Under the pieces are notes generated by a model that ran no database searches, had not been told where the DNA came from, and saw only the letters and a program-made list of their open reading frames with translations. From an uncultured Planctomycetia bacterium (GTDB lineage Bacteria; Planctomycetota; Phycisphaerae; FEN-1346; JAACEH01), in contig CAIYVX010000106.1 in NCBI GenBank assembly GCA_903929765.1, positions 1 to 43,661 of the forward strand: DNA of 43,661 nt, in the 5' to 3' direction. A program made the translations under genes and the position numbers. Positions 21,906-40,141 of the stretch are shown here, in pieces (positions within the stretch are counted from its first letter, which is position 1; each line of letters begins with the position of its first letter).

Positions 21906-22631
21906 TCACCGTTGCGGCTGAGCCTCGGCGGCGGTGCGAGCCTGGAGTTCGTCGAAGCAGGCCAGGACCAACTGCTTATCCCGGGTATCGGTGATCAAAA
22001 TGTTAATCAGGCCGACACCATAACCGATGACGAAAGCAAAAAAGTAGCCGCCCACGCCGAGAACTAAGAAAACCCAATTAGCATAGTGAACCGAACTGCT
22101 TTGTAGGGAGTTCAGCAGAATAATAAGCGGAAGATAGCAGATCCAGTAACCCAGGACCGCTCCCTTCCAGAAGCGGGGCCAGCGACGGGCATCCAGGGGA
22201 TTGACCTTAGCGAAGATCAGGCGGCCGACAATGGCCAGGCCGAAGAAACAGCCGAGCAGGCTCGAGATCCAGCCGTTGCCGACATTGAGCATGGAACCGA
22301 GGAAAATCAGCGCGACCATAATGATCAGGCCCAGGGTTAGCCGCGGAATAGTCCGCGAGACGGCACGCTGCTCAATTTCCTCACGCGTGACGGCTTTGGC
22401 GCGTTCAAAAATCTTGAACACCGCTTCCCGAGCGGCTCGTTCAGAGACTTTGAGCGGGGGTGGCGGCAGAGTTGCCGGTGGAGCATTCTGCGGCAGCACG
22501 TCCGGAGGCGGCTCGACGGCGGCGATGTTCTCCACCGTGTGGCGGACGCAGTCATGACATTTGTCGTTCTCGGGCAAATGGTTGGAGTCGGACAGCTCCG
22601 TACCGCAACCTGAACAGACCTTCACGGACAT
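21906..22631 (-). CDS. Zinc-ribbon membrane protein of unknown function
   Basis: The 241-aa protein begins at 22631 (MSVKVCSGCGTELSDSN) rather than at an upstream in-frame ATG, because the Cys pair and a GAAGAAGA stretch upstream mark this start. CSGC and CHDC form a four-Cys zinc ribbon. A Pro-rich linker (PPPDVLPQNAPPATLPPPP) leads to about four membrane helices (TLGLIIMVALIFLGSML, GWISSLLGCFFGLAIVGRLIF, AVLGYWICYLPLIILLN, YANWVFLVLGVGGYFFAFVIG). This layout is common in planctomycete genomes and has no assigned function. Its promoter must lie in the same intergenic region as that of the portal gene. Confidence 0.75.
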   Translation of the reverse strand: MSVKVCSGCGTELSDSNHLPENDKCHDCVRHTVENIAAVEPPPDVLPQNAPPATLPPPPLKVSERAAREAVFKIFERAKAVTREEIEQRAVSRTIPRLTLGLIIMVALIFLGSMLNVGNGWISSLLGCFFGLAIVGRLIFAKVNPLDARRWPRFWKGAVLGYWICYLPLIILLNSLQSSSVHYANWVFLVLGVGGYFFAFVIGYGVGLINILITDTRDKQLVLACFDELQARTAAEAQPQR

Positions 22632-23255
22632 GATATTCTTCTTCGTGACAAGAATGATCGTGGACAATTCTAACCCAGACTCCATTAGAAAACCACGTCA
22701 AACAGCCATCGCGCAAAAGTGTCACATTTTTGCCCACCTACCTTTTCGCGCGCCTCGCGCGTGACATGCCCAAAATCAATTGTCGCAACTCCTTGTGCCA
22801 CCCACGGTTACGCCAACGCGCGGGTGTGACACTCCCCAAAATGCCACCCAAAACGCCCGCCGCGAACCCCTGATAGATCTGGCGAAATTCTGTCTTGTCA
22901 CAGCGCTACACCCCTCCCGGAAAAATAATTATTTTTCGCAATCGCCGGATTTTGCCTGTGCCGCCTAAGGAATTCGGCGTGTGACATAGTGTGTCACAGA
23001 CCGAGAAAACGGCGGATTTACCCCTGTACGGGGTGAGACAGTCGGGGATTAGGTTGAGAGGACCGTTGGTCGTAAAAGTGGCGAGGGTCGGAATGCGGTG
23101 GGGGTGCCACACTTTGTCCCGGCGGGTTGTTTCGCCGGGCAAGGTGTGCTGAAAATCGGCCGGCACTCGACACACCTTGCCCCAAAAGCGGGGCCAAGGT
23201 GTGGCACCCCGAGTCGGAGCGAAGAGAAGCAGACATTATTTTAAAGGAGCAAGGA
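22632..23255. other. Intergenic region with a heptamer array upstream of the portal gene
   Basis: This 624-bp region holds five copies of TGTCACA or its reverse complement TGTGACA (22720-22726, 22825-22831, 22896-22902, 22980-22986, 22992-22998), plus GTGACA at 22761. The last two face each other as an inverted repeat 5 bp apart. GAAAAATAATTATTTTTC (22920-22937) is a perfect 18-bp palindrome. At 23102-23210 lies a composite repeat, and TAAAGGAGCAAGGA precedes the portal ATG. No gene is seen. Confidence 0.6.
23102..23210. repeat. Composite GGGTGCCAC repeat upstream of the portal gene
   Basis: GGGTGCCACACTTTG at the left end is mirrored by AAGGTGTGGCACCC at the right end, with further nested stems between (ccggcggg...cgccggg). 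The same outer arms frame the repeats at 38161-38275 and 40142-40242. It is a long dispersed inverted-repeat element located between the operator-like array and the portal start. Confidence 0.75.
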
Positions 23256-24794
23256 ATGAATTTTCAGTTCAACCGTTTTGGAAATCCGCCGCTCGATGCC
23301 GCCTACGTGGAGCATCTGCTCAACGAGGAATTCCTCGACCGCACGCTGGCCTTCGAGCGGCTCTGGAAATATTACCGCAACGAGATTCACGGTCTCGACG
23401 GCGGTTTGGCCCTGCCCCTGGCCGGTGACGGTTGGGCGGAAGTCGCGCGGCCCTACGTTCAGGATCAGGAGTTCGGCCTCCCGGCCCGCATCACCGGACG
23501 CAGCTATCTCGGCTACGGGGCCGGGGGCCTGGGCCTGCCGGCGAATTTGCGGCGCGGCACGGAACCCAGCGGCGCGGCGGCGCGGCGGAAGGAAGTCGTG
23601 GTCGAAAACGACATCGGCTGGCGGATCGACACCGGCGTCCATTTCCTCTTCGGCAAAGCCCCGATCATCGAAAGCCTGGCCCCGGACCCGGCGCGGGCCC
23701 GCGAAATCGAAGCGCTCCTGGCGGCCGTTTTCCAGGCCAACGGCGGTGTGGCCTTCTTTCAGGAACTGGCCCTCCTGGGCGGCGTCTACGGTTTTGCCGA
23801 CGTGGTGTTGCGGCTGACCGAAGGCCTGACCCAGGTGGACGGCCGGTGGGTCCGCTCAGGTGATGACGTGGCGGAGGAAGTCGATCCACTCGCGGCCGTG
23901 CGGCTCGAAGCCGTCGAGGCTTCGCGGGCGATTCCGATCCTCGACGAGGAAGATTTCCGCACGGTTCGCTATTACGTCCTCCATTATCACAAGCTGCTGA
24001 ACCAGGTGATCGTCGCCGACGATCTGCCGTTGCAGCAGGCGACGTGCCGCGTGACGGAAATCCTGGGGCCGGACTGGTGGCAGTATTACGAGGACGGGTC
24101 GCTGGTGGCCGAGGGGCCGAACGTCCTGGGCCAGGTGCCGGTGGTGCACATTCAGAACCTGCCGCTGCCGGGGCGGTACGAGGGTGCGGGCGAGGTCGAG
24201 GCGTTGATTCCGCTGCAGGACGAGCTGAACACGCGGCTGTCGGACCGGGCCAGCCGCGTCACGTTCCAGAGCTTCAAGATGTACCTGGGGCGGGGGATCG
24301 AGAACTTCGAGAATCGGCCGGTGGCGCCGGGGCGGATGTGGTCGACGGACAACCCGGACGCGGCCATCGAGGAATTCGGCGGCGATGCGGATTCGCCGAG
24401 CGAGTCGGCCCACGTGAGCGAACTGCGCGAAGCGCTGGACAAGTTGAGCGGCGTCACGCCGCTGACGGCGGGACTGATAAACGGACGGATGGGCAACCTG
24501 ACGAGCGGGGCGGCACTGAAGGTGACGCTGATGGGGACGCTGGCCCGGGTGGAGCGGAAGCGCGTGACTTACGGCGAGGGGTTGGGGCGGCTGAGTGCGA
24601 TGATTCTGGCCCTGGTGGACCGGGCAGGGATTTTTGCGAACACGGCGGAAGAGCGGCGCGTGCGGATTCATTGGCCGGACCCGTTGCCGGAGAATCAGCG
24701 TGAGCAGTTGGAACAGGCCCAGATGAAACTGAACCTCGGGATTCCGCGAGCGGACGTGCTCCGGGAACTGGGGTATGCGACGCCGGAGGAGTGA
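23256..24794 (+). CDS. Phage portal protein, SPP1 gp6-like
   Basis: The portal forms the dodecameric ring at one capsid vertex through which DNA enters and leaves. The 512-aa protein starts at 23256 after AAAGGAGCAAGG. It shows the gp6-like layout: NDIGWRIDTGVHFLFGKAP near residue 110, HYHKLLNQVIVADD and GPNVLGQVPVVHIQN in the wing/stem part, ALIPLQDELNTRLSDRASRVTFQ (the long stem helix), and LTSGAALKVTLMGTLARVERKRVTYGEGL near the C-terminus. Length is normal. It is the first gene of the rightward structural block; a terminase, expected just upstream, is absent. It is followed by a repeat-filled 101-bp gap and the scaffold-like gene. Confidence 0.88.
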   Translation: MNFQFNRFGNPPLDAAYVEHLLNEEFLDRTLAFERLWKYYRNEIHGLDGGLALPLAGDGWAEVARPYVQDQEFGLPARITGRSYLGYGAGGLGLPANLRRGTEPSGAAARRKEVVVENDIGWRIDTGVHFLFGKAPIIESLAPDPARAREIEALLAAVFQANGGVAFFQELALLGGVYGFADVVLRLTEGLTQVDGRWVRSGDDVAEEVDPLAAVRLEAVEASRAIPILDEEDFRTVRYYVLHYHKLLNQVIVADDLPLQQATCRVTEILGPDWWQYYEDGSLVAEGPNVLGQVPVVHIQNLPLPGRYEGAGEVEALIPLQDELNTRLSDRASRVTFQSFKMYLGRGIENFENRPVAPGRMWSTDNPDAAIEEFGGDADSPSESAHVSELREALDKLSGVTPLTAGLINGRMGNLTSGAALKVTLMGTLARVERKRVTYGEGLGRLSAMILALVDRAGIFANTAEERRVRIHWPDPLPENQREQLEQAQMKLNLGIPRADVLRELGYATPEE

Positions 24795-24798
24795 ATTC

Positions 24799-24875
24799 GT
24801 AGGGTGCGTGCTCGCACGCACCATTTGATTGAAAACTGGAAGAAGCGGATTGGTGCGTGCAAGCACGCACCCTAC
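24799..24875. repeat. Pair of inverted GTAGGGTGCGTG palindromes
   Basis: GTAGGGTGCGTG begins at 24799 and GCACGCACCCTAC ends at 24875. Each half is itself a small palindrome (gcgtgctcgcacgc, gcgtgcaagcacgc), together forming a long imperfect inverted repeat in the portal-scaffold gap. Confidence 0.75.
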
Positions 24876-24895
24876 AGGGAAGAAGGAGGAGTGAG

Positions 24896-25483
24896 ATGAC
24901 GGAGATCCGGGAGGATCGGGAGCCGGTCGCAGACGTGCCGGCGGGCCAGGGGCCGAAGTTGGTGGACGTGCGGGAGAGCATCCGGCACCGGCGGCGGGCG
25001 CAGGAAGCGGAGCAGAGGGCGGCGGCGCTGGAGGCGGAAGTGGAGGAGTTGCGGCAGGCCCAGGACGGGGCGGCCCGGTCGCTGGAGGAGACTCTGGCGT
25101 CGGAGCGGCGCCGGGGCGAGGAGCTTCAGAAACGGTTGGACGCGCTGCAGGCGGAACGTGAACTGGAGCGGGAGTTGATTCGGGCCGGAGCGATTGACCC
25201 GGAGGCGGCGCTGCTGGTGGCGCGGGAGCGTCTGGCGGCGCTGGGCGACGAGGAGGTCGATTTGCCGGCGCTGGCCCAGCGGGTGCTGGAGGAGAAGCCG
25301 TACCTGCGGCCGGCCCAGAAGCGGGAAGTTGAACCGCTGGGTCGGCGGTCGCAGGGGGCTCGTCCGGCGGGTTCGGGCGAGGCGGCCAAGAGCCGGCGTC
25401 TGGCGGATTCGGCGCGGCAGACGGGTCGGCGGGCCGACCTGGTCGAGTACATGCGGACCAGGCGGCGCGGCAGCAAGAAGTAA
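24896..25483 (+). CDS. Scaffold-like coiled-coil protein of the capsid module
   Basis: The 195-aa protein starts at 24896, just after AGAAGGAGGAG. Residues about 35-110 are a charged coiled coil (AEQRAAALEAEVEELRQAQ, ERRRGEELQKRLDALQAERE), followed by a helical region and a very basic tail (DLVEYMRTRRRGSKK). Acidic or coiled-coil proteins with a basic C-terminal capsid-binding tail, encoded between portal and major capsid, are typically internal scaffolding proteins. The call rests on position and composition; sequence conservation is low in this class. It precedes the capsid gene by 53 bp. Confidence 0.7.
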   Translation: MTEIREDREPVADVPAGQGPKLVDVRESIRHRRRAQEAEQRAAALEAEVEELRQAQDGAARSLEETLASERRRGEELQKRLDALQAERELERELIRAGAIDPEAALLVARERLAALGDEEVDLPALAQRVLEEKPYLRPAQKREVEPLGRRSQGARPAGSGEAAKSRRLADSARQTGRRADLVEYMRTRRRGSKK

Positions 25484-25536
25484 GCGGTTCATTCGGTTTG
25501 TATTGGTTAATTCAACAACAGTAAAGGAGATTCACA

Positions 25537-25710
25537 ATGGCATTTACTGGAAAAGCAACGTACCTGGCCGGCTTCCCGTTCCCCGAAATTGCGGAGGACG
25601 TGAGCGACCTGGTGGGCATCGTCAGTCCGTACGAGACGCCGCTCTTGGACGCCGTGGGCGATCCGCAGCGGGCGGCGCAGTCGACCTATCACGAGTGGCT
25701 GGAGGATGCG
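25537..25710 (+). pseudogene. Major capsid protein, N-terminal part (interrupted)
   Basis: Codons 1-58 (MAFTGKATYLAGFPFPEIAE..., ending STYHEWLEDA) match the start of SU10/DUF5309-type major capsid proteins, in which an N-terminal arm leads to the E-W-x-x-D-x segment. The start follows TAAAGGAGATTCACA. After codon 57/58 the frame runs into the inserted element and stops at 25770 after 19 unrelated codons. The rest of the gene begins again at 32602. As it stands this piece lacks the whole capsid fold and cannot make shells. Removing the 6,891 bp between the halves restores the gene exactly in frame. Confidence 0.9.
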
Positions 25711-27455
25711 CCCTCCATCCCTCGGATGGCCGTATTGCCAAACAAAGCGGCCGCGTTGGCAGGGAGGTAAAGCGTGCCCACTTTCGCGTCGGGATCGACC
25801 TCGATGCGGTCGACGTAGGCGCGAACGATACGCCGTGTTTCGAGCGTCGATTCCGGGTTGGCCAGCACGCGTTCCAGTTCCTCGAATCTCGCTGTGGCCC
25901 AGGCACGTAGCGAGGCTTCGTCCATCTCCTGGCTTTTCGCCGTCGTGGCCTTCTGCAACTTGGCCAGAAGGGTGTCGCGTTTATGACTGAGTTCGACAAC
26001 GCTCTGTTTGACTTCTTTCACGTCGCCCAGGTCTGGGTCGGCCAGCATGGCCACCATCGTCCTGAGGCGGTTGCCGACGGCGGCCAGTTCTTTCTCGGTC
26101 GCCGTGTTGTCCGTCTTCGCGGTGGTCCTCTTCATCAGCGTCTGGACCACGGTATCGATGGCCTCCTCGGCGGCGCCGTCGCCGAAGATGGTTTTGCGAA
26201 CCTGGTCCAAGACCCACCGCTCAAGCTTTTTCGACGGGAGGCTCGTCGAGCGGCAGAAGGTGGGGCCGCGCTCCCGATAGCCACGGTCCACGTAGTACCG
26301 GGTCTCGCCATCTCCGTAGGGCGGGTGCTTGATGACGGTACCGTGGAAGTTCAGGCCGCAGCGCAGGCATTTAACCAGGCCCGACAGCAGGTAACGATCT
26401 ACTGGACGGGCGATGCCGCCCTTCTCTCGGCGTTCCGCCATTGCCGCGTGGGCCTTCTCAAAGACTTCAGGGCTGATGAGCGGCTCGTGGACGTTTTCGA
26501 CGAGAATCCACCTGTCCTTCGGGTTCCGCGTGCCCTCTTTGACCTTCTTGGGCCGCGGCATACCGTCGCCGTTGATGCCATGAAGTTTGCCGTAGGTGCG
26601 TTTATTCCAGGCGAGCGCCCCACGGTAGGAAGGGTTTTCCAGAATGGCCTTGACCGACGCGTGGTTCCAGAGGCTGCCCATCGGGCCGGGGATACCAAGC
26701 CGGTTCAGTTCAATCACCATGGCGCGGAACCCGAGACCCTTGATGCACATGTCAAAGATCAGGCGGACGACCTTGATACGCTCCGGGTCACTCGGGACAA
26801 GCCGCACGATGTCAGACTTCAGTTTGTGGCCCATTCGCTCTTTCTGGGCAATGTGCCGGATGAGCCGGCAGTCGGGGCCAAGTTCCTGGCGGCGACCATC
26901 AGACAGGGTCCTGATCGTCTTGACGACGTGGCCATCGGAGCTCAGGTATTGACGGTCATAACCATAGGGTGCCAGGCCGCCCATGCTGCTGTGGCGAACG
27001 GTTACGCACGAATGCTGTCCGCGGATGCTGTCGCGCGACAGTTTCACGCTGTACTGCCGAGCCTGCCAACTCTTCACGCCTTGGAGCAACTCGCCTTCGT
27101 CGCCCTCGGGAATGCCCTCAGCGCAGAAGATAGCCTGGACGCCGGCCAGACCCAGACGATGGAGATAGTAGCCGGTCTCGTTCGTGCCGCCGCGCGAGAA
27201 GCGGCTGATGTCATAGCAGAGGATGACGTCGAAGTCGCGGCCGTTCTCGGCCGTCTTGATCATACGTTCGAATGCCATGCGGCCTTTGGTCGAAGTGCCG
27301 CTGATGGCGTCGTCGACATACCAGCGGACGATCTCGTAGCCACGCTCTTTTGCCCAGCGCTCGACGTAGACTTGCTGGTCGGGTATCGACCGCTCCTGCA
27401 TGTCGGTGGAACGTCGGGCGTAGCCCACTGCTTTGATGGTCTTGTTCGCTATCAT
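25689..27455 (-). CDS. Large serine recombinase (site-specific integrase)
   Basis: The 588-aa protein has an N-terminal resolvase domain with the catalytic serine in GYARRSTDMQ (Ser16), DDAISGTS and CYDISRFSRGG; a recombinase domain (about 170-310, GGLAPYGYDRQY and ILENPSYRGALAWNKRTYG); a zinc ribbon (CLRCG near residue 364 and a later Cys in TFCRST); and a C-terminal coiled coil (NTATEKELAAVGNRLRTMVA). This is the full domain set of serine integrases that join attP and attB. Its last seven codons (GASSSHS and stop) are capsid-gene sequence, so in the excised circle it would have a different C-terminus. It is transcribed away from the element interior toward the left end. A 61-aa gene lies upstream. 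Confidence 0.95.
   Translation of the reverse strand: MIANKTIKAVGYARRSTDMQERSIPDQQVYVERWAKERGYEIVRWYVDDAISGTSTKGRMAFERMIKTAENGRDFDVILCYDISRFSRGGTNETGYYLHRLGLAGVQAIFCAEGIPEGDEGELLQGVKSWQARQYSVKLSRDSIRGQHSCVTVRHSSMGGLAPYGYDRQYLSSDGHVVKTIRTLSDGRRQELGPDCRLIRHIAQKERMGHKLKSDIVRLVPSDPERIKVVRLIFDMCIKGLGFRAMVIELNRLGIPGPMGSLWNHASVKAILENPSYRGALAWNKRTYGKLHGINGDGMPRPKKVKEGTRNPKDRWILVENVHEPLISPEVFEKAHAAMAERREKGGIARPVDRYLLSGLVKCLRCGLNFHGTVIKHPPYGDGETRYYVDRGYRERGPTFCRSTSLPSKKLERWVLDQVRKTIFGDGAAEEAIDTVVQTLMKRTTAKTDNTATEKELAAVGNRLRTMVAMLADPDLGDVKEVKQSVVELSHKRDTLLAKLQKATTAKSQEMDEASLRAWATARFEELERVLANPESTLETRRIVRAYVDRIEVDPDAKVGTLYLPANAAALFGNTAIRGMEGASSSHS
25705..25729. other. Left attachment junction (attL-like) of the inserted element
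   Basis: The capsid codons ggaGATgcg meet element DNA here. GAT at 25705-25707 is shared with the right junction (32596-32598). The element side carries CTCGGATGG at 25721-25729, which is the exact reverse complement of CCATCCGAG (32573-32581) at the right end. Confidence 0.75.
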
Positions 27456-27589
27456 TCCGGTCTCGCTTTCGTGGCCCTTACGCCAGCCACGGTTGTGACT
27501 CCTACCTCAACCGGCCAGACACATCAAGTTGAATCTACGCGATTATGTGCAGAAGGGCATGCGACTGGCGGGCGGCTTGGGAGGCGGGT

Positions 27590-27775
27590 TCAATACGTTT
27601 CTTCGTGCTCGCGGCGCCATTCGGTAAGGAGCCAATCGACCAGGGCGTCAACGCGTCGCGCCCGACGGGCATCGTCTTCAGGGGAGGGGTCGGCAAAGGC
27701 CACGGACATCCGGACCGAACCGATGACGTTGGTGTCGTCGGCGACGGTGCGATTCATGGTCTGTTCGGCTGGCAT
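27590..27775 (-). CDS. Small acidic protein upstream of the recombinase
   Basis: The ATG at 27775 is preceded by an excellent GGAGGAGAG ribosome binding site. The 61-aa product (MPAEQTMNRTVADDTNVIGS, then a charged DPSPEDDARRARRVDALVDW helix and LLTEWRREHEETY) is predominantly acidic and helical at its C-terminus. No family is recognised. It precedes the recombinase by 134 bp in the same direction, the place where small recombination directionality factors or regulators are often found. Such a role is only a positional guess. Confidence 0.65.
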   Translation of the reverse strand: MPAEQTMNRTVADDTNVIGSVRMSVAFADPSPEDDARRARRVDALVDWLLTEWRREHEETY

Positions 27776-28054
27776 GTTGCTCTCCTCCGGCCCCATCTGG
27801 TTACTTATGCCGAAGACGTGGAGCGTGTCCGGAAATCTCGAAGGAAGGGGAGCAAAACGGTCTGCCTATGGGGCCAAAACGATGTCATCCCCAAGCGGTT
27901 GTGGTGCCCCAAAAGACGCGATGGAAAAATGCCATAACATGTTGTGTGGTAAGTGGTTATAAGAATCCGAACGGCAGCTTAATGAGGTCTTGACGAGGGC
28001 AAAGAAAATGCTAACCTACGCCCATCCTGCGAAACCCGCCTGCTTGGGACCTGA
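27776..28054. other. Noncoding stretch inside the element
   Basis: This stretch should contain the promoter of the leftward 61-aa and recombinase genes, but I see no convincing -35/-10 pair. At 28022-28030 ccatcctgc partly resembles the right attachment arm (CCATCC shared), with GGGA about 17 bp further on, just before the truncated tape-measure frame opens. The likeness is weak. Confidence 0.4.
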
Positions 28055-29152
28055 CGGATCGGCGTTGTCGTCACCTACGTCTCGGCGGCCGTCGGGGCGC
28101 TCGGGACAATCTGCTCGGTGGTGGGGAGCATCCTCGGTGCCCTTGGGTCGGTGATCGCGGCCATTTGTTCGCCCGTGGGCCTGGTCGTGGCCGCCATTGT
28201 CGCCCTCGGGGTGATCATTCTGAAGGTGACCGGCGCCGGGGGCAAGGCCCTGAAGTGGCTCGGCGACATGTTCAAGGGCCTCTGGAAAGACGCCTGCCTG
28301 GCCTTCGACGGTATTTCCGACGCCCTGGCCGCCGGCGACATCGCCCTAGCCGCGAAAATCCTCTGGCTCACCCTCAAGATGGAGTGGATCAAAGGCTGCG
28401 CCGCCCTTTCGGAAATCTGGACGAAGACGAGCAGTTGGTTCAAGACCGTCGGGGCCGAGGCGTGGTATGGCACGCTCCAGGTGGCGGAATCGGTCTGGCA
28501 CGGCCTCGCCGAGGGCTGGATCGAGACGACCAACCTTCTCTCGAATTGCTGGACGCGGTTCGTCCAGGGCGTCACCAAGGGTTGGAATTGGGTCAAGGGC
28601 CTGTTCGACGAGAGTTTCGATTCTCAGGCCGCGAACAAGCTGGTGAACCAGGCGGCGAATTCCGACGTGGCGAAGCGGGAGAAGGAGCGCGACGACGAAT
28701 TGGCCCATGAAGCGGCCATTCATGAAAAGGTGCAACACCAGATCGACGCCGAACGCGAGGCCAAGCTGAAGGCGATCAAGGACGCCAAGGACGAAGCCCT
28801 GAAATCGACTCAGGCCGAAGTGGACGCGGCGCGGAAAGCATGGGACGACGCGCGGGCCAAAGCGAAACAGGAACGGAAGGACAAAGAGGACACCGCGAAG
28901 GCCACGGCGGACGCCGCCGCCGGTGCGGTGCGGAACCGGAAGCTCCCCGACAAGGACGACGTGTCGAAGGCCATTAACGACGCCTCTGCCCGGGGCACGT
29001 TCAACGCGTCTCGGGGCGCCATGCTCGGTATGCGTATGAACGGCGGCGAGACGATGGAGCGGGTGGCCAAGGCCAGCGAGAAGTCGGAAAAGCACCTGGA
29101 CAAGATTCAGAAGGACATTGCTGAGTTCGACGGCTTGGAATTTGGAGTGTAG
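28055..29152 (+). pseudogene. Tape-measure protein, C-terminal fragment
   Basis: The frame is open from 28055 after an in-frame TGA and encodes about 365 aa with no proper start. It begins with a small-residue hydrophobic stretch (VSAAVGALGTICSVVGSILG, SPVGLVVAAIVALGVIILKV), then amphipathic helices with GDMFKGLWKDAC and WHGLAEGWIETTNLLSNCW, then a highly charged coiled coil (DAEREAKLKAIKDAKDEALK). This is the standard C-terminal layout of long-tail tape-measure proteins, which set tail length. The much longer N-terminal part is missing. It lies within the inserted element, so either the element picked it up from another phage locus, or the locus was rearranged. It overlaps no neighbour and is followed after two bases by another truncated phage-type gene. 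Confidence 0.7.
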
Positions 29153-29154
29153 GC

Positions 29155-29544
29155 GTGGCGATTCAGGTTGGCGAAAAGTTCAACTCTCCGCGGCTGACGA
29201 CCGGTCGTAAGTCGTCGGCCGAAAGTCGCTGGTGGATCACCGGGACGGGCGACGAAAATGCCGCGAAGGCAGCGCTGTGCGCGGCGGCGCCGGCGTCGAT
29301 TGGCGGGGCCGCAGAAGTCACCATGACCACGCCGACCGGTACGGTCATTCTGGCGGTTTGGCCGTTTCTGGTGTCCAGCGACGTGACGGTCGAGCAGGTC
29401 GCGCCGGGCCTCTGGGACGGCATCCTTTCTGTTGGCGGTTCACCTTGCGTTTGGATCGATTCAATCGTTCTTCTCTCGGCAAGAACGGATCGGCACTCAC
29501 TCTGGGCCAGGGCATTTAGTGCCATGCGCCTTACATCCCATTAA
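29155..29544 (+). pseudogene. Truncated tail-associated phage gene
   Basis: GTG start at 29155 with GGAG upstream, right after the tape-measure stop codon. Residues 1 to about 93 (GEKFNSPRLTTGRKSSAESRW, VTVEQVAPGLWDGILSVGG) look like a phage-tail protein encoded after tape-measure genes. After that (VWIDSIVLLSARTDRHSLWA...) the sequence loses this character, and the frame ends at an unrelated stop. The break near 29435 marks the right edge of the captured phage DNA. Family assignment is from gene position and sequence pattern only. Confidence 0.5.
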
Positions 29545-29791
29545 TGGGGGTAGAGCCACGCCTCCCTGACAGCCACTGACAGCAACCCGCCCCCCTGCGT
29601 GCACGACAGCATCTCTCAAGCTGCAACACCTTATAGATCAAGAGGTTACGGAAATCCCGTAATCTCTTGGATCATCAAGCACCCCGGAATCCACAACCGT
29701 ACGTGAGTCTTGCCGAGAATCTGAATACCTGCAATCTGAAGCCCCTAATGGCTATCTGGACAAGGACTCCTAGTTGGAACAGGCCGTGGAA
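29545..29791. other. Noncoding stretch inside the element
   Basis: No gene is seen. The only structure is agaggttacgg / cccgtaatctct near 29650-29680, an imperfect 11-12-bp inverted repeat around a short loop, which could be a terminator between the rightward phage fragment and the leftward gene, or an old recombination site. Confidence 0.4.
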
Positions 29792-30217
29792 CTATTCAAG
29801 CTGAAAGTCCTGGCCATACCCAAGAATCTGCTGGCACTCCTCGCGAGCCTTGGCCCAATCGTCGTCTTGCCCGTCGCTGACGACAATGATCTCGCCACCC
29901 AAGTGATGCTTGAGAACGATCAACGCCACTTGGACACAAAGGTCGTACGGTAGACGCTCGGTCTTGCAGAATGAAAAAGCTCGCTTCCGTCCTTGATGTG
30001 GAGCATCGGTCCGGCGGAAGACAAAAGGCTCGCAACAGTTGTCGCCGGCTCCGTTGAAGGCAATCTCATCATCAGAGAACACCGGTAACCCTTCGCCCTG
30101 CTCGTCACCGAGAGGGATGTTAATGCCTGCCATGATTCGCAGGCAATCCCTGGCAGCTTGGATAAACCCTTCCTTCGGAAGTTCTGGTACACGCTCCCAC
30201 GAATGCGTCCAGCCCAT
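29792..30217 (-). CDS. Hypothetical protein of a conserved-looking family
   Basis: The ATG at 30217 (MGWTHSWERVPELPKEGFIQ) is preferred over an upstream in-frame ATG because AGAGGTGGTG precedes it. The 141-aa product contains GEGLPVFSDDEIAFNGAGDN, then CCEPFVF, RAFSFCKTERLPYDLCVQVA and LIVLKHHLGGEIIVVSDGQ. I recognise this overall pattern (MGWTHYW..., FCKT...PYD, LKHHL, SDG) as a recurring uncharacterised family often found in accessory DNA. No catalytic residues are assigned. It is cargo of the element, left of the 30364 repeat, and transcribed toward the left like the recombinase. Confidence 0.7.
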   Translation of the reverse strand: MGWTHSWERVPELPKEGFIQAARDCLRIMAGINIPLGDEQGEGLPVFSDDEIAFNGAGDNCCEPFVFRRTDAPHQGRKRAFSFCKTERLPYDLCVQVALIVLKHHLGGEIIVVSDGQDDDWAKAREECQQILGYGQDFQLE

Positions 30218-30515
30218 CGGATCACCACCTCTCGCTCCAAGAGTACCCAATTTGAGTTGTAATCGCAAGGCTCCTCGCGGCCAATATCCTTATTCCAGAT
30301 GGCATCGGCTGTCCGTACGCCGATCTTCTTCAAACCGTATTTTTGATTCTGCCATCGCAGTATGTGAACCCGATTTCTATCCGAGCGCTAAGCCACGCAG
30401 AAGATCGCTGACGTGACATGTCCGCGTTTTTGACCCCGCCAGGGCCATTTTTTCTATCCGAGCGCTGAGGCGCGCGCCGTCCGCAGCCATTCTGACCCAG
30501 CATTGCTCACGGCGG
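30218..30515. other. Noncoding stretch with two right-arm-like repeats
   Basis: Contains the direct repeat copy at 30364-30401 and a diverged copy at 30451-30475 (tttctatccgagcgctgagg). Both share tatccgagcgct with the right end of the element. An open frame on the minus strand from 30333 has no support as a gene. Confidence 0.6.
30364..30401. repeat. Internal copy of the element's right attachment arm
   Basis: 34 of 38 bases match 32560-32597, including an identical 21-base block (30381-30401 and 32577-32597). The block ends in GA, the proposed crossover dinucleotide. The arm here reads CTATCCGAG at 30377-30385 instead of CCATCCGAG. Confidence 0.85.
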
Positions 30516-31343
30516 TCACTCCGCCATGCCGAGCGTGGCCAGCAAATAATGCACGCGTTCGAATGCGTCGCGCCGGACACGATCTCGTTCTTCCGAGTTG
30601 GTGATTTCCTCGAAGTCCACCACCTGCATCGGCCCCAGGCTATCGATGGCGCGGAAGTGCTTCGCCAACTTCTGGATGCCCTCCCGGACCAGACCCTCTG
30701 CCAAGTGTGGCCTGATGGCATCCACAACCGCATCGGCGCCACCCGGGTAATTCAGTAGGCAGTAGTAGATGTCCCAAGCGTCCTTTTCCTTCAGTCGCGC
30801 GTCGAGGGCCATGCTTTTCATCACGATGAACGGGACCACAGATGCGATCCGCAGCGTGACGGAGTCTCTGGCGCCGCCCGGCAGGGTTCCCTCAAGCTCA
30901 ATTTCCGTGGGAGTGTCGAACACAAGGTCGGCGCCCCGCGCCTTTCGGACCTGCAAGTCTTGAACGGTCTGGGTTCGATGGCCGCGTCCCGTGCCCCCGT
31001 ATTCGCCGGCCAGGAAATCCACCTCCACCTTTATGCTGCGGCCGCCGACCGGAACGGTTCGGAAGTAGATGTACGGCTGGCTCCCTTGCTCGTAACCCCG
31101 CGCGGTCAGAAGTTTTTGGATCGTGCGGTAACTTGCCTCCGTGACGTGCCGGTGGTCGAGGGCCAGGTCGATGTCCATACTGCCGACGTGCTGCTGCCCT
31201 GCCTTACCACAGAGGAATTGCGGCACCCACCCGCCGACCAAAACCATGTCCTCCCGGTACTCGCCTAGAAGATGGACGAGTTCAATGAGCACCGATCGCG
31301 CGGCCTCCACCATCTCCTGGTTGTAGTCGTGACGGGTCACCAT
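30516..31343 (-). CDS. AbiEii/AbiGii-type nucleotidyltransferase toxin
   Basis: The 275-aa protein has the nucleotidyltransferase-fold signature: DMVLVGGWVPQFL followed by GS at residues 54-55, Asp57 and Asp59 (GSMDIDLAL), and a third acidic residue in IKVEVDF (Asp109). This is the pattern of AbiEii toxins of type IV toxin-antitoxin systems, which modify tRNA or otherwise stop growth, often in phage-infected cells. The gene overlaps the upstream antitoxin gene by seven bases, so expression is coupled, with antitoxin first as in known abiE operons. All three acidic residues are present, so activity is expected. Confidence 0.85.
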   Translation of the reverse strand: MVTRHDYNQEMVEAARSVLIELVHLLGEYREDMVLVGGWVPQFLCGKAGQQHVGSMDIDLALDHRHVTEASYRTIQKLLTARGYEQGSQPYIYFRTVPVGGRSIKVEVDFLAGEYGGTGRGHRTQTVQDLQVRKARGADLVFDTPTEIELEGTLPGGARDSVTLRIASVVPFIVMKSMALDARLKEKDAWDIYYCLLNYPGGADAVVDAIRPHLAEGLVREGIQKLAKHFRAIDSLGPMQVVDFEEITNSEERDRVRRDAFERVHYLLATLGMAE

Positions 31344-32395
31344 TGTGGTTTGATAACCTCCTCCAGAATAGCGGTCGCCGCTTCTTCGCCTCGCCCCTTG
31401 AGGCCTACCAGGTCGAGATAGGTTTGGATCGGGGACACGACGCGCACCTCATCGATGTCGCAGAACCCCAGGTATACGCCGACGTCATAGGGTTGCAGCA
31501 GCGTCACGTTGGCGCCGCTGCTCACCTTCTTCAGGCCCAAAGTATTGGCGACCACCTTGACGTCATCGGCATACGCGAAGACTCGCTGGTAACGCACGTT
31601 GGGGGCCAGCCGTGCGGCGGCGGAGAATGCCGTGAGCGCGTAGCGAACCTTCATGTCGGCGCACGCCACAGCCAGTTTGGCCTCCGTTTCCGAAGCCGAT
31701 TTCATCGTGTAGAAGTCGGTCGCCTCGGACTTACGGAACGAGTAGTTGTCCGCCCACTCCGCAAGCAACTCGGCCGGCCGAGCCAGAGCGAACCCGGCTC
31801 TTGCCTCACGCAGCCATTCGCGGTCTCCCAGGCCTTTCTTCACGGCCGCGACCAGACCCAGGCTCACGTCTGCGGCCTCAACGACCTCGGTCATCTTCCA
31901 GAGCCGCTTGGGCTCGCCGAGGAGAACCCGGAGAATGCGGCTGGCTTTCGGAGAGTAGAGCGTTCCCAGGTCACGTTTCAAAGAGAATTTGTTCGGTCGC
32001 CCTTGCCGTTCGATGAAGACGCCGCCGAAACTGAGCTGGCAATTCCCCGAAAGGTCGATATAGCCGACCCCCCGCTCGGCGCAGACGCGGGCCGCACTGT
32101 CCGAGATGTAAGGTGCCAGAAAGACGCCATAGGCGTTGTTGTACTGCGAGCAGCGTTCTACGAGCTGGCCAGCGGCCTCCCTGGCCAGACGCGGTTCGCC
32201 GCGGGGCTTGACTTCGATTATCAACAGGCGTGACCCCGTGGGACTGTTGACCTTCAGCACGAGATCTGGCCCCTGAGGCGTGGAGGCCTCTGGACCCTCG
32301 CAGCGCACCCAGTCGGTCAGGGGCGTGCCTCGAAAGGCGTCGCGGACGGCTCTCTCCGCCTGTTCCAGCGTGGCCTTTTCGTCTAATTTCACCAT
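31337..32395 (-). CDS. AbiEi-type antitoxin and autorepressor
   Basis: The 352-aa protein starts at MVKLDEKATL (32395); the frame further upstream passes through the operator and is not used. Residues about 40-130 include GPDLVLKV and LLIIEVKPRG, an Asp and Glu-Val-Lys set like the PD-(D/E)xK-type fold seen in long AbiEi proteins, then GVGYIDLSGNCQLSF. A winged helix follows (SPKASRILRVLLGEPKRLWK, MTEVVEAADVSLGLVAAVKK). AbiEi proteins neutralise AbiEii indirectly and repress their own promoter through inverted repeats. Two such repeats flank the promoter here. It overlaps the toxin gene by seven bases. Confidence 0.85.
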   Translation of the reverse strand: MVKLDEKATLEQAERAVRDAFRGTPLTDWVRCEGPEASTPQGPDLVLKVNSPTGSRLLIIEVKPRGEPRLAREAAGQLVERCSQYNNAYGVFLAPYISDSAARVCAERGVGYIDLSGNCQLSFGGVFIERQGRPNKFSLKRDLGTLYSPKASRILRVLLGEPKRLWKMTEVVEAADVSLGLVAAVKKGLGDREWLREARAGFALARPAELLAEWADNYSFRKSEATDFYTMKSASETEAKLAVACADMKVRYALTAFSAAARLAPNVRYQRVFAYADDVKVVANTLGLKKVSSGANVTLLQPYDVGVYLGFCDIDEVRVVSPIQTYLDLVGLKGRGEEAATAILEEVIKPQW

Positions 32396-32404
32396 AATCG
32401 GCCC

Positions 32405-32499
32405 TTTCAACGTTCGTTGAAACATAGTATATCGGTGAAAGCACCACGGCGTCAAGAGAAAATTTTCACTCTTGTTGCCGTTTTCAACGAACGTTGAAA
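32405..32499 (-). promoter_or_regulatory. abiE promoter with two operator palindromes
   Basis: On the minus strand TTGACG (32450-32455) and TATACT (32426-32431) are spaced by 18 bp, a near-consensus sigma70 promoter. TTTCAACGTTCGTTGAAA (32405-32422) covers the expected start site, and TTTCAACGAACGTTGAAA (32482-32499) lies upstream of the -35 box. The two 18-bp sites are exact reverse complements of each other, as expected for a repressor that binds both. AbiEi is the likely ligand. Confidence 0.8.
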
Positions 32500-32559
32500 C
32501 GCTATTTTTGGGTGAAACCGCGCCGTCTAACCGCCTTTTTTATACCAAAAACGCCCCAG

Positions 32560-32601
32560 GTGAACCGTTTTTCCATCCGAGCGCTAAGCCACGCAGATTC
32601 G
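32560..32601. other. Right attachment junction (attR-like) of the element
   Basis: The arm CCATCCGAG at 32573-32581 is followed by 15 bases and then GAT at 32596-32598, after which capsid codons resume (tcg ctg ctg ccg). The first 38 bases are repeated at 30364-30401. Confidence 0.75.
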
Positions 32602-33585
32602 CTGCTGCCGAACAAGGATCAGATTGCGGCCACGCCGACCAATCCTACCAGCGACACGACGCTGAGCGTGGCCAACGCGGGCAGCTTCCGCGTCGGCGAC
32701 CAGATCAAGGACTCCGTCCATACGGAGTTGATGCTGGTCACGGCGGTCAACACGGCGGCCAGCACGATCACGGTGACGCGCGGCTACGGCGGCACCACTC
32801 CGCAGGCCATCGGGCTGAACGACACGGTGTACATCCTGGGCAACGCGGCCCTGGAAGGCGACGACGCCGCCAACCCGCGGTTCACGACGCGGAGCCGGCG
32901 CGGGAACTGGACGCAGATTTTTACCGAGACGGTACTGGTGAGCGGCAGCGACATGGCCGTGCGGCATCTGGCTGTGGCCGACGAACTGGACTACCAGAAG
33001 CAGGAGCGGCTGCGCGAGATGCTCCGCGATCTGGAGAACACGGTGATCAACGGCATCGCCCCGAGCGCCACGCCGCAGGGCAGCGCCGCGGTCCGTCGGA
33101 CGATGAACGGGATCATTCCGCAGATTCAGACCAACGCCTTTGCCATGGGCGTGAACGGTTTCCCGTCCGGTCCGGCCCTGACCGAGCCGACGCTGAACCA
33201 GGCCCTGCGCAACATCTGGACGAACTCCTCGGCGAACATCGACCTGATCGTGGTGAACGGCTACCAGAAGCGGCAGATTTCGGCCTTCTCCAGCGCCATG
33301 CGGCGCTACACGGCGGAGGACGAGCGGTTCAACAACCTGATCGGGATCTACGAGAGCGACTTCGGGGTGCAGCGGGTGGTGCTGTCGCGCTGGGTGCCGG
33401 CCGACACGGTGCTGCTGCTGGATTCGAGCCGTCTGTCGGTCCTGCCGCTGGCGGGCCGGAGCTTCCAGTACCGTCCGCTGGCGGCCACGGGCGACTTCGA
33501 GCGTGGCGAGCTGATCGGCGAGTACACGCTGGAGTTGCGAAACGAGCAGGCCCACGGTCTGATTCGCGGGTTGCAGTCGGCCTAA
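32602..33585 (+). pseudogene. Major capsid protein, C-terminal part (interrupted)
   Basis: This holds 327 codons from LLPNKDQIAATPTNPTSDTT to RGLQSA. It contains the SU10/DUF5309-type core: GSFRVGDQI, GDDAANPRFTTRSRRGNW, TQIFTETVLVSG, LRDLENTVINGIAP, and ANIDLIVVNGYQKRQIS, ending with the P-domain strand VLPLAGRSFQYRPL. The frame upstream to 32494 is element DNA without a ribosome binding site, so this part has no authentic start. Together with codons 1-58 it makes a 385-aa protein, a usual length. It is followed by a 235-bp repeat-rich gap and the connector gene. Confidence 0.92.
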
Positions 33586-33589
33586 CGGC

Positions 33590-33798
33590 AACGGGTGGCA
33601 TGGACCACGCTTGCGTGGCCATGCTTGTCAGAGGTAGCAGTGAAACCGGTCGGGGTGGAGCCCGGCGCGCGTGCGGCCCTGTTGGGTCGTGATCAGCCAG
33701 ACGCCTTCGCGCTCGAATCCAAAACAGGAGCGGACCGAGGCGTGGGGCTCCACCCCACCACTTTTTTTACTGTAGGTCGGGTCAACAGACCCGACAGG
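33590..33798. repeat. Repeat cluster after the capsid gene
   Basis: Three chromosomal repeat types stand in line: a ggtggcatgg/ccatgc palindrome (about 33592-33627), an inverted pair ggtcggggtggagccc ... gtggggctccacccc (about 33646-33760), and the GTAGGTCGGGTC palindrome (33772-33796) that also ends coaE. No coding signal is seen. Confidence 0.7.
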
Positions 33799-33820
33799 TG
33801 AATCAGAAAGGGATATTTTT

Positions 33821-34474
33821 ATGGCAAACTTTTCGACCGACGCGGACCTGGTGAAATGGGAACCGACTCTGTTTCGCGACCTCTCGGCGCCGGGGCAGCG
33901 GCTGGCCGGCGGCAGCGACGGTTCGACGGCGGGCCTGGCGCTGACCAGCGTTTCGGCCAGCTTCACGACGCAGCGCGTGGCCCCCGGGCACGTCGTCCAC
34001 CTGGCGTCGGCGGACGGGACCGACTTCGGCTGTTACGAAGTTCTGAGCGTGGTGTCGGCGACGGCGCTGCTGGCGACCGACGTGGGCCGCGACGCCACGG
34101 ATTCGGTGGACCTGCCGACCGGCCATCCCTGGACCTACAGCATTGACACGTTCGACGCCCAGGCCGAGGAGGTGCGGTTCGAACTTCTTTCGCGGCTCGG
34201 GCTGGAAAGCGACCGGCACGGGCTGGATCAGGAAGCCTGGGTGCTGGACCGGCGCGTGTTGCGGCGGGCCAGCGTTTTCGCCACGCTGGCGATGATCTTC
34301 GAGGGGCAGTCCGGCGGGAACGAGGAGGGGCGGACCCTGGCGGCCAAGGCGGCGCTCTATCGCGGGCTGTATGAAAAGGAACTGGCGAAGATTCGGGTGC
34401 GGCTCGACCGCAACGGCGACGGGTTGGCGGACGACATGCGAGCGCCGGGGAGCGCGCGGCTGTCGCGGGATTAA
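33821..34474 (+). CDS. Putative head-tail connector (phage structural) protein
   Basis: The 217-aa protein starts at 33821 (MANFSTDADLVKWEPTLFRD). Its N-terminal half is beta-rich (FTTQRVAPGHVVHLASADGT, CYEVLSVVSATALLATDV), and the C-terminal half is helical and charged (WVLDRRVLRRASVFATLAMI, KAALYRGLYEKELAKIRVRL). A helical gp6-like head-tail connector encoded right after the major capsid gene would fit. The call rests mainly on position. It precedes the next gene by 29 bp and follows a repeat cluster. Confidence 0.6.
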   Translation: MANFSTDADLVKWEPTLFRDLSAPGQRLAGGSDGSTAGLALTSVSASFTTQRVAPGHVVHLASADGTDFGCYEVLSVVSATALLATDVGRDATDSVDLPTGHPWTYSIDTFDAQAEEVRFELLSRLGLESDRHGLDQEAWVLDRRVLRRASVFATLAMIFEGQSGGNEEGRTLAAKAALYRGLYEKELAKIRVRLDRNGDGLADDMRAPGSARLSRD

Positions 34475-34503
34475 CGAAATAGTCGGTCTAAGGAGAAACG
34501 AAC

Positions 34504-35364
34504 ATGACGGGACGTGGCTGGGCACTGCTGGCGGCGGCGCGACGGGCGATCTTGACCGTGCCGGGCATTGGCGGGGCGCACATTGTGCGTGACCGGCGGC
34601 GCGAGGACGTGCCGCTGGGACAGCAGGCGGCGGTGCTGCTGGAACCGGAGTCGTCGCAGCAGCTCTGGTGGCCGCAGTCGCGCGACTGGCAGTACGAACT
34701 GAGCGCCTTCACGCTGGTCACGGTGGCCCGGGTGCGGCCGGGAGCGTCAGCGCGGCAAAAGGTGGCCGAGTTGCACGAGGCGGCGCTGGCGGCGGTGCGA
34801 AACTCGGCGGAAATTCTGGCGGTGGTGAGCGACGGTCCGCCCAGTTCGGAGCACGTGCTGCGCGACTTGAAGCGGGAGATCGGCGGCGTGCGTTGGGGTC
34901 CGACGGTGGAGGAGAAGGACCGGCCGGGTGATCCGTTCGCGCTGGCCACGGTGGTTTGCCTGGGGGTTTGGATTTCTCAACCGACGACTTCGGTGACGCT
35001 GGACGGGGCGGCCCTGTTCGCCAGCGGACCGCACGAAATTGTTCCGGGCAGCGCCGAACGGGCGACGAGCCAGCGGCTCTTCAACGGCCTGACCGGGGTG
35101 CTGTTGGTGGACCTGGGACCGCGGCCGCGGCGTCTGGTGCAGCACGGGTGGCTCTCGGCGGCGAGCGAAACGAGCCTGTTTCAACTGGAGTCGGCGATTG
35201 AGGCGCGGATCGACGGGGCGGTACACGCGCTGGTTGACCGCGACGGGACGAGTCATCCGTATGTGCGGGTCGAGCGGTTCACGCGGCGCGGGCCGGTGGA
35301 GATCGGGCTGCGTTATAACCGGGCGTATGAGGTGGAGTACACGGACTTCTTGCCGGGGACATAG
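34504..35364 (+). CDS. Phage-type structural protein, possibly tail completion
   Basis: The 286-aa protein starts at 34504 with AAGGAGAAACGAAC upstream. The first 160 residues (LAAARRAILTVPGIGGAHIV, YELSAFTLVTVARVRPGASA, ALATVVCLGVWISQ) resemble small head-closure or tail-terminator proteins. The second half (VTLDGAALFASGPHEIVPGS, GVLLVDLGPRPRRLVQHGWL) is a separate beta-rich domain. It could be a fusion of tail terminator and tail tube functions. No firm family is recognised; the call rests on location and length. Confidence 0.5.
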   Translation: MTGRGWALLAAARRAILTVPGIGGAHIVRDRRREDVPLGQQAAVLLEPESSQQLWWPQSRDWQYELSAFTLVTVARVRPGASARQKVAELHEAALAAVRNSAEILAVVSDGPPSSEHVLRDLKREIGGVRWGPTVEEKDRPGDPFALATVVCLGVWISQPTTSVTLDGAALFASGPHEIVPGSAERATSQRLFNGLTGVLLVDLGPRPRRLVQHGWLSAASETSLFQLESAIEARIDGAVHALVDRDGTSHPYVRVERFTRRGPVEIGLRYNRAYEVEYTDFLPGT

Positions 35365-35406
35365 GCGTGGGTGGCCTGGCGGCCGCTTTTTACCGCCTTG
35401 ATGTTT

Positions 35407-35462
35407 TGAGCCTCAACCCCTCACCCGGCCCTTGCGGGCCACCCTCTCCCAGGGGAGAGGGG
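35407..35462. repeat. Dispersed repeat upstream of a fibronectin-like gene
   Basis: cctcaacccctcacccgg, a GGCCC/GGGCC-type hairpin and ccaccctctccca/ggggagagggg follow one another. The same order is found within polA (4165-4222), and the last part at 26-58. Confidence 0.75.
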
Positions 35463-35482
35463 TAACAACAAAGGAATCGGCG

Positions 35483-36220
35483 ATGGGCTTTTCGATAGCG
35501 GAAATCGGCGGCGTGCGGGCCATGCCGGTGGTGCTGGCGGTGGACGTGGCGGGGCGCTGGCAGGCGGAGCCGGGGTTCGTGGAGGTGGTCTTCACGTCGA
35601 GCGCGGTCGGGATGCAGCACCAGGTTTACGTGGACGGGCGGCTGGCGGGGGCGACGCTCTCGACGGCCGACCGGTCGGTGATCGTGGCGGCGCCGCAAAC
35701 GGCGGCCAGCGCGATCGAGGTGGCGGCGGTCGATCCCGGCGACCGGCTGACGGATTTCAGCGCCTCGCTGGCCGGGTTCACGGCCGCCCAGGGCACATGC
35801 GTGGAACTGGTCTGGTCCGGCGGGCGATACCTGGGCAACGACCTGGATCATTTCGACGTTTTCGGCGGGCCGGCCGGGGCCATCGACTATTCGCGGCCGC
35901 TGAACGCCGAGGCGATCGGGAAAATAGGTGACTGTCCCTATTTTGAGGGTTTGGGTTGCGGCGGATTCGGTCGCGGGGGCTGGGGCCGCAGCGCCATGAC
36001 TTTCACATTCGTTACGCAGAAATATTTCAACGGGACGTACAGCTTTGAAATCCGGTCGGTGGACACGGCGGGCAACGCCGCGCCGGGGCCGCAGGTCACG
36101 GTCCAGGTGCAGGGCCTGCCGCGACCGCCCGGCGAACTCACGATCACAAATTACGACTCCGGCAGTCGGGCGGCGAGCCTGGCGTGGGCCGGCAGTCCGG
36201 ACCTCGAACAAGGGAGCTAA
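35483..36220 (+). CDS. Phage-type beta-sandwich protein, fibronectin III-like
   Basis: The 245-aa protein begins at 35483 (MGFSIAEIGGVRAMPVVLAV) after AAAGGAATC; the longer open frame starts inside a repeat. It contains VYVDGRLAGATLSTADRSVI, LVWSGGRYLGNDLDHFDVFG, YSFEIRSVDTAGNAAPGPQV and LTITNYDSGSRAASLAWAGS, typical alternating strands of Ig/fibronectin III domains, likely in a tail or tail-tip protein. Codons for IGKIGDCPYFE (35912-35944) come from an inserted palindrome. It ends four bases before the next gene, so they are co-translated. Confidence 0.65.
   Translation: MGFSIAEIGGVRAMPVVLAVDVAGRWQAEPGFVEVVFTSSAVGMQHQVYVDGRLAGATLSTADRSVIVAAPQTAASAIEVAAVDPGDRLTDFSASLAGFTAAQGTCVELVWSGGRYLGNDLDHFDVFGGPAGAIDYSRPLNAEAIGKIGDCPYFEGLGCGGFGRGGWGRSAMTFTFVTQKYFNGTYSFEIRSVDTAGNAAPGPQVTVQVQGLPRPPGELTITNYDSGSRAASLAWAGSPDLEQGS
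35921..35944. repeat. AAAATAGG/CCTATTTT palindrome inside a phage-like gene
   Basis: AAAATAGG (35921-35928) and CCTATTTT (35937-35944) form a perfect 8-bp stem around TGACTGTC. The AT-rich block is unlike the surrounding codons and stays in frame. Its sequence type (tagg-tgactgtccc-tattt) is that of REP-like dispersed elements. Confidence 0.7.
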
Positions 36221-36224
36221 GGAA

Positions 36225-36473
36225 ATGGCCTCGACTTTTACACCGCGCTTCAATCTGGAGAAGCCCGCGAACAACGATTATGTGGACACCTGGGATCAGG
36301 TGGTTAATGCAAACATGAACAAGATTGACGCGGCGCTGGCGGCGGTGCCGGTGGCGACGGCTGATCCGCCGGCTCCGGCGGCGGGGCAGATGTGGGTGCG
36401 GTCGGACCTGTCGCAACTGCGGATTCGCGTCGGTTCGGCGACGCTGCAAGTGGCGCTGTCACCGGCGTCGTAA
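36225..36473 (+). CDS. Small phage-type protein
   Basis: The 82-aa protein starts at 36225 with GGGAGCTAAGG upstream. It begins MASTFTPRFNLEKPANNDYV and continues DTWDQVVNANMNKIDAALAA, a pattern common at the start of phage tail-fibre or tail-tip proteins, then a small strand-rich tail (MWVRSDLSQLRIRVG). It may form the attachment part of a fibre. It is followed by a 69-bp gap and the LamG gene. Confidence 0.65.
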   Translation: MASTFTPRFNLEKPANNDYVDTWDQVVNANMNKIDAALAAVPVATADPPAPAAGQMWVRSDLSQLRIRVGSATLQVALSPAS

Positions 36474-36542
36474 GGGGGCTGGCCCGCGCACGGTCGGACA
36501 AGCCGGCCGTGGCACATGTGATAGGTAAGAACGGGAGAAAAA

Positions 36543-38153: not shown

Positions 38154-38160
38154 TGAATCC

Positions 38161-38275
38161 GGGTGCCACACTTTGAAGCGGCGGCGAAGCCGACGCCAAA
38201 GTGTGTGTTTCTTTGTCCGGCGAGAAGCACACACTTTGGCTCCGACTAAAGTCGGAGCTTCAAAGTGTGGCACCC
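38161..38275. repeat. Composite GGGTGCCAC repeat
   Basis: GGGTGCCACACTTTG at the left and CAAAGTGTGGCACCC at the right are exact inverted arms (38161-38175 and 38261-38275). Nested stems gtgtgt / acacac and ctccgac / gtcggag lie between. Shares its arms with 23102-23210 and 40142-40242. Confidence 0.85.
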
Positions 38276-38309
38276 GGAATTGAGCAAGGAACGCGAGGAG
38301 AAATAATAA

Positions 38310-40130: not shown

Positions 40131-40141
40131 AAAGTGGATGC

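Follow-up and report, generated by a model that had tools for sequence, protein, structure and literature searches.

What purpose, if any, is served by five copies of one seven-base word crowded into the intergenic DNA before a phage portal gene in an uncultured planctomycete? The window, by which we mean the whole stretch of 43,661 bases that was analyzed, is contig 106 of a 3.83-Mb genome in 116 contigs. Our preferred answer, to which we assign a probability of roughly 0.4, is that the array represents lineage-specific binding sites of a candidate DNA-binding protein, overlying a control region that is conserved upstream of a phage head block (portal, scaffold, and SU10-type capsid genes) domesticated long ago. 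Three observations carry this tentative reading: the sites and their clustering, a conserved portal-upstream element beneath them, and the descent of the portal along host families.

The five TGTCACA/TGTGACA heptamers that an earlier note on this DNA had reported within 279 bp sit exactly where it placed them, and the window contains no others. Sites 1 (22720–22726) and 3 (22896–22902) are exact matches to TGTCACA on the plus strand, site 2 (22825–22831) lies on the minus strand and reads TGTGACA on the plus strand, and sites 4 (22980, minus strand) and 5 (22992, plus strand) form an exact inverted pair, TGTGACA-N5-TGTCACA, at 22980–22998. Two weaker sites keep the hexamer TGTCAC (as TGTCACG) on the minus strand, one at 22645–22650, just 5′ of the likely start of a zinc-ribbon ORF, and the other at 22761–22766. 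Counted as hexamers, 7 of the window's 13 copies of TGTCAC fall within 353 bp (22645–22997).

The total number of heptamers is ordinary for the window (shuffle mean 2.54, with five or more in 15 of 100 shuffles); what exceeds chance is their clustering, as the earlier note had maintained. In 5000 dinucleotide shuffles each of 22686–23100 and 22720–22998, the commonest 7-mer of any kind reached at most four copies and TGTCACA at most two, five copies of any 7-mer being found in 0/5000. The same note had proposed comparing the heptamer with the intergenic DNA of this genome, where it occurs 3 times in 33.6 kb against 5 times in 279 bp here. That figure comes from 20 stretches that together sample 400 kb, or roughly one tenth, of the genome (with intergenic defined as outside greedy ORF calls), and in none of the sample's 150 intergenic segments does TGTCACA appear twice. 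The whole genome holds 112 copies of the word and 92 of its reversed form, and among 100 listed of the 112 places, read by eye, more than two heptamers within 300 bp are found at the array alone. The seven TGTCAC sites also share a helical face better than randomly placed sites do, with p = 0.003 for a fixed period of 10.5 bp and 0.026 when the period is left to vary, which favors protein binding in what is a post hoc test; the five exact heptamers give p = 0.034 at 10.5 bp and 0.082 with the period scanned. As in operator arrays, an intergenic control region here contains a single site repeated more often than expected by chance.

Alternatively, the array may have no function and be a post hoc cluster in a lower-GC spacer, helped by decay of the arms of a REP-like repeat (TGCCACA to TGTCACA), a reading that we consider unlikely. 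The earlier note could have picked out any of numerous words in any of numerous places, and other 7-mers cluster elsewhere: groups of five copies of any 7-mer in 279 bp are numerous in the window and the 400-kb sample, nearly all of them GC-rich, A-rich, or tandem words, plus AATATCC. The look-elsewhere effect is therefore real once such words are allowed, but it fails to account for a balanced, intergenic, non-tandem word, and the shuffles described above weigh against a chance origin. The AATATCC/GGATATT cluster of the same genome places five words in ~100 bp, in both orientations (L080:7706-7807).

The REP/REPIN-like element is an imperfect palindrome of ~110 bp, GGGTGCCACAC..GTGTGGCACCC (23101–23210), which adjoins the array and lies between it and the portal gene; the window has a second copy at 40141–40242. 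About 40 places in the genome carry the repeat (from 40 scored of 172 candidates), and the genome has eight Y1_Tnp (RAYT-type) matches. In favor of arm decay, the repeat copy L025 has a decayed arm with TGTGACA, the site at 22720 matches the REP arm at 7 of 13 flanking positions, and the best REP-arm score of the region is reached by 5% of background pieces. The other four sites, however, match the arm at 3 or 4 of 13 flanking positions, approximately the chance level, and with only site 22720 mildly similar, we rejected arm decay as the source of the heptamers. The repeat forms a strong hairpin of 110 bp, and its position between the array and the portal gene complicates any simple operator model.

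A genome search for the inverted pair, which the earlier note had called for, returned its single exact copy. Allowing two mismatches adds three further places, all over mechanical ORFs of 181–826 aa (reversed control: one place). Across 298 genomes, the exact pair is present in six, the window's own included (reversed control: one genome), and in the five others it falls inside ORFs of 268–844 aa, without an array. No regulon for the pair is therefore seen in the same genome at up to two mismatches, a test that a single-target regulator would fail likewise. The remark that a spacing of 9 bp between TGTGA and TCACA misfits a standard Crp site is upheld, and a Crp site was rejected on frequency, matches at up to two mismatches numbering 8 in the window against 8.2 expected, with only 22825 inside the region. 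One HTH_Crp_2 protein above the family cut-off is encoded in the genome, away from the array, and no tie between it and the site was found. The perfect A+T palindrome GAAAAATAATTATTTTTC at 22920–22937 is exact over 18 bp, as first described, and is the window's sole palindrome of ≥18 bp; its standing as a special feature did not survive, since 8 perfect palindromes of ≥18 bp in the 400-kb sample make about one per window expected. We dismissed it, at so ordinary a frequency, as support for the operator reading.

The region had originally been read as an operator array for the structural block, the zinc-ribbon gene, or both, and for the block that claim splits in two: the region does hold the phage block's conserved upstream element, whereas control of the block by the heptamers as such finds no backing before 65 portal orthologs, none of which has an array. 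These are 65 of the 70 orthologs in other genomes (those of G035, G061, G065, G069, and G114 fall outside the set), and the 38.5 kb before them, measured from portal starts that are estimates in some families, contain 4 TGTCACA and 13 TGTCAC, a heptamer frequency close to the intergenic background. The 600 bp before nine named loci, some from genomes that overlap with the ortholog set, contain no TGTCACA and one TGTCAC. Among 75 fetched loci of relatives, a count from which L129 was dropped for having 123 bp upstream only, the densest carries 2 heptamers in 300 bp and none is higher. Sites conserved before orthologous genes, a second property of operator arrays, were found neither in the 65 orthologs nor in the 75 loci. 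Because the heptamers are not conserved before the orthologs and the inverted pair has no regulon, these comparisons make the heptamers, as far as the examined genomes go, a feature of the window's lineage alone. A search for relatives of the spacer by DNA similarity gave one short match in each of 3 of 149 other genomes (23–28 bases, E ~0.008), which we judged to be chance.

What is conserved is an element beneath the heptamers. Six same-order relatives have it in common before the portal gene, and a hidden Markov model (HMM) built from them matches the window at 22783–22835 with an E-value of 0.035, the best match besides the training rows and L070, a locus that duplicates one of those rows. 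In an unguided two-part scan, the best pair of the window starts at 22779 and 22847, a distance of 68 bp compared with 67–69 bp in the relatives; 7 of 600 random pieces of the same genome reach its score. An iterated search, from which L070 and L077 were omitted and the window was excluded as training material, gathered 28 rows that represent several families; as controls, reversed sequence gave 0 or 1 matches, the minus strand 1 to 4, and the 400 kb sampled from the window's genome none. The model R1, built without the window from 24 of the 28 rows (L041, L054, L056, and L057 were omitted from its alignment, A1), has one match in the window, on the plus strand at 22786–22858 (16 bits, E 2.6e-4; model positions 29–101 of 127), inside the array, and none in the 400-kb sample at E-values up to 10. 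The core of the element, CTCCTTG-N11-GTTACG, lies at 22789–22812, with AAAACG near 22850; toward its 3′ end the window's copy is poorly preserved. The heptamer at 22825 falls in the element's unconserved spacer, and the remaining heptamers flank the element. Of 45 portal-upstream loci that are not part of its alignment, R1 matches nine, one of which is the locus of the window itself; of these 45, L041, L056, and L057 took part in earlier iterations. The other 36 give no match, so the element is not universal.

R1's sole match in the window lies inside the array, which marks the region as the upstream control region of the block; most simply, the array region would be the ancestral upstream region of the phage block. 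No consensus RNA fold was obtained for the conserved element, and we therefore read it as a probable DNA control element; no Rfam family matches the window, and a search for a good promoter on the portal strand found none. A second copy of the element at 22940–23035, at first favored by eye, appears in neither the unguided two-part scan nor the R1 search and was discarded. In one same-order relative, the only one to show them among ten relatives' loci searched, two group II intron matches lie upstream of the portal gene on the minus strand (L040:3387-4043).

The element also occurs away from portal genes. With strict filters, R1 at E ≤ 0.01 matches 36 of 150 genomes, in up to 23 copies, with none in the window's own genome, and the matched genomes include four without a portal match (G013, G098, G109, and G145). 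Eight further copies were fetched from G127, and most of these resemble one another and the copy before the portal along most of the element. Relatives of an HNH/AP2-type endonuclease gene, assigned by Pfam on six of the proteins, follow 7 of 8 fetched copies in G127, 3 of 3 in G133, and 3 of 3 in G115, and none of those in G098 (0/7), G045 (0/9), and G145 (0/6). The dispersed copies may be a regulon or a mobile sequence. A bolder proposal, which we regard as a long shot, is that a class-wide element of ~120 bp, with the consensus AAAAATTTT..TCTCCTT..CAGGACTTA..TTTTCGCA..AAACGCGCAGGTTC..GTGGAGGG, governs an anciently domesticated head block of Phycisphaerae that resembles a gene transfer agent (GTA). 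The same genomes would share it with HNH/AP2 genes and dispersed copies, as a regulon or mobile control element, and in this species the TGTCACA array would have overlaid it and rewired it to a new regulator.

The block downstream (23256–40130; portal, scaffold-like, SU10 capsid, and more) opens with the portal protein gene at 23256–24794 on the plus strand (SPP1_portal, PHROG portal), the first gene of the conserved part, preceded by AAAGGAG (23243–23249, plus strand), a likely ribosome-binding site as read from the letters. It is followed on the same strand by a probable scaffold gene at 24857–25483, which scores under the Pfam cut-off and keeps a conserved position, and by the major capsid protein gene (SU10_MCP) at 32494–33585. 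Compared with the named relatives, ~7 kb (25483–32494) are inserted between the scaffold-like and capsid genes. This insert contains a minus-strand gene of the AbiEi antitoxin/regulator family (31337–32455), the nearest gene to the array with a regulator label; no regulator gene adjoins the array, and the AbiEi-family gene is not tied to the site.

A portal match is present in 71 of 150 genomes, counting the window's own. The tree of the best 30 of these 71, compared with host family labels rather than with a host gene tree, follows host families with 10 label changes, the fewest possible over all groups (f16 needs two). All ten named loci with a portal relative are planctomycete, six of them labeled Phycisphaerae or a group within it, which is probably the class of the window as well. 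Portal and capsid occur together in nine of the ten; the sequence of the remaining one, L074, stops just after the portal. The viral_contigs scan produced no relative, and the 16 matches in phage records are 25–29% identical among the ten listed, with none covering more than 80% of the protein. We read the block as an inherited phage head block that was probably domesticated anciently. Descent with the host in many hosts, as expected of GTAs, is seen for the block in these best 30 of 71 when judged by host family labels, and such adherence to host families, over much of the class, makes this phage head block a GTA candidate. From the GTA gene set, portal, scaffold-like, and capsid genes were found, together with a weak tape-measure match (28118–29152) in the insert, outside the conserved block; no terminase was found in the window, and the genome's best match to phrog_2 has stops. 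Titles and abstracts, with partial coverage of the literature, yielded neither a TGTGACA array before phage genes nor a GTA in Phycisphaerae. In some genomes, mainly of families f7 and f11, the portal is matched in two pieces around residues 190–270, at times with an in-frame stop, a possible intron, intein, or insertion.

The heptamer word might itself be phage-borne, and for that reason IMG/VR was scanned. Direct TGTGACA pairs with a period of 8 occur in at least 120 stretches, a few of which share a contig, against 33 for the scrambled heptamer, and intergenic arrays of at least five per 300 bp make up 32 of 120 loci (27%) against 5 of 33 (15%) in the scrambled control. Dense intergenic TGTGACA/TGTCACA arrays are seen in viral contigs at L292:7936-8226, L199:21-304, L229:5013-5308, and L428:3387-3683; terminase and P22-like portal genes adjoin the L292 array, and a primase gene adjoins that of L428. 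Among the neighbors scanned (75 of 136 ORFs, some near-identical), DNA primase phrog_1156 was found in 9/53, large terminase phrog_2 in 6/53, and small terminase phrog_1482 in 4/22, these four looking like near-identical copies; the primase and terminase figures are raw counts. ParB-like proteins are also among the neighbors. Such contexts suggest that the viral arrays may be origin-type or late-control arrays.

By extension, the window array could be a phage-type initiator array, in which repeats around A+T-rich DNA form a replication (or packaging) origin for a phage primase-helicase or terminase, either as a relic or still used by the block. The enrichment of viral arrays over the scrambled control and their nearness to primase and terminase genes speak for such an origin, as do the A+T palindrome that the window array surrounds and the primase of the phrog_1156 family that the genome encodes (two matches, both on other contigs). 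The geometry, however, differs: viral arrays favor direct pairs at 12 and 9 bp, besides the 8-bp spacing used to find them (six near-duplicate arrays were set aside from this analysis), whereas direct pairs in the window are at least 96 bp apart. As a mark of viral arrays, the inverted N5 pair was abandoned, since it comes with intergenic arrays no more often (3/120) than its control does (2/104). The raw and partial neighbor counts mentioned above weaken the analogy further, no primase or terminase family matches any window ORF scanned, as an adjacent initiator gene would, and TGTCACA is absent from L552, the fetched 4-kb locus with the genome's primase. We consider an origin distinctly improbable. 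A blastn search of one viral array against phage records gave short matches, none spanning most of the query. At G000:C94:76075-79733, a primase of phage type, intact, lies close to a weak match to large terminase, perhaps as parts of a separate prophage.

To the left of the array lie the housekeeping genes rho, coaE, polA, and ffh and a minus-strand run ending in a divergent membrane ORF (21906–22631; a longer start is possible at 22685) with N-terminal CxxC pairs and hydrophobic stretches, labeled zinc-ribbon by eye from the CxxC pairs and matching no zinc-ribbon family. It has no relatives in the other 149 of 150 genomes searched. That the array controls only this gene or its operon, overlapping the portal element by accident, is the least probable of the explanations. 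In its favor, the TGTCAC site at 22645 adjoins the gene's likely start, the genomes searched show both the array and the gene in this lineage only, and the portal gene is cut off from the array by the REP hairpin. Against it, the conserved portal element lies inside the array, which contains no promoter-like site for the zinc-ribbon gene.

If the array does consist of lineage-specific binding sites over the control region of the head block, the conserved element would act as promoter or leader, and a dimeric protein would read TGTCAC(A) half-sites. Its best site might be the inverted pair at 22980–22998, in which 10 bp, close to a full turn of the helix, separate the centers of the two pentamers in TGACA-N5-TGTCA. 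Transcription of the portal operon could then be switched by how far the scattered half-sites are occupied, possibly together with that of the divergent zinc-ribbon gene. Candidate readers are the Crp-type protein coded elsewhere in the genome and the product of the AbiEi-family gene in the block's insert. Short-site arrays before genes are already known as a kind, and the weight of this one comes from where it lies: the region is conserved in front of phage head genes whose descent tracks that of their hosts over many families, probably across the class Phycisphaerae. If the block makes particles, the array region would be a likely switch point for particle production, and the element offers a handle for testing whether Phycisphaerae keep a gene-transfer-agent-like system.

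The window shares features with several known systems. Crp/Fnr operators, with the consensus TGTGA-N6-TCACA, have the TGTGA/TCACA half-sites in common with the window, which places nine bases between them. HcpR is a member of the Crp/Fnr family. In the portions of the report consulted, HcpR regulon sites such as TTGTGAcAgcTgTCACAA carry both heptamers of the window pair, likewise facing inward, but separated by two bases instead of five, and as single sites where the window has an array (PMC545781). The MtlR operator of Bacillus subtilis, which appears as TTGTCACA in the PmtlA primers, contains the window's heptamer, yet this operator of a Firmicute is, in the sections consulted, a lone activator site close to a −35 box, without an array (PMC3217849). 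Closer in appearance are the intergenic TGTGACA arrays of phages in IMG/VR, which resemble the window array in word, density, mixed orientation, A+T-rich surroundings, and phage gene context; many of them are more tightly packed, their direct pairs being spaced by 8, 9, and 12 bp, and they count primase and terminase genes among their neighbors rather than a portal alone. For the block as a whole, the nearest comparison is with RcGTA-type gene transfer agents, whose regulation is by other factors. The window departs from them in having no terminase found and in being known from its genes alone. The likeness lies in inheritance: as far as the consulted part of the source describes them, RcGTA-type agents keep their head genes by descent over many members of a class, as the window block appears to do (PMC7947584).
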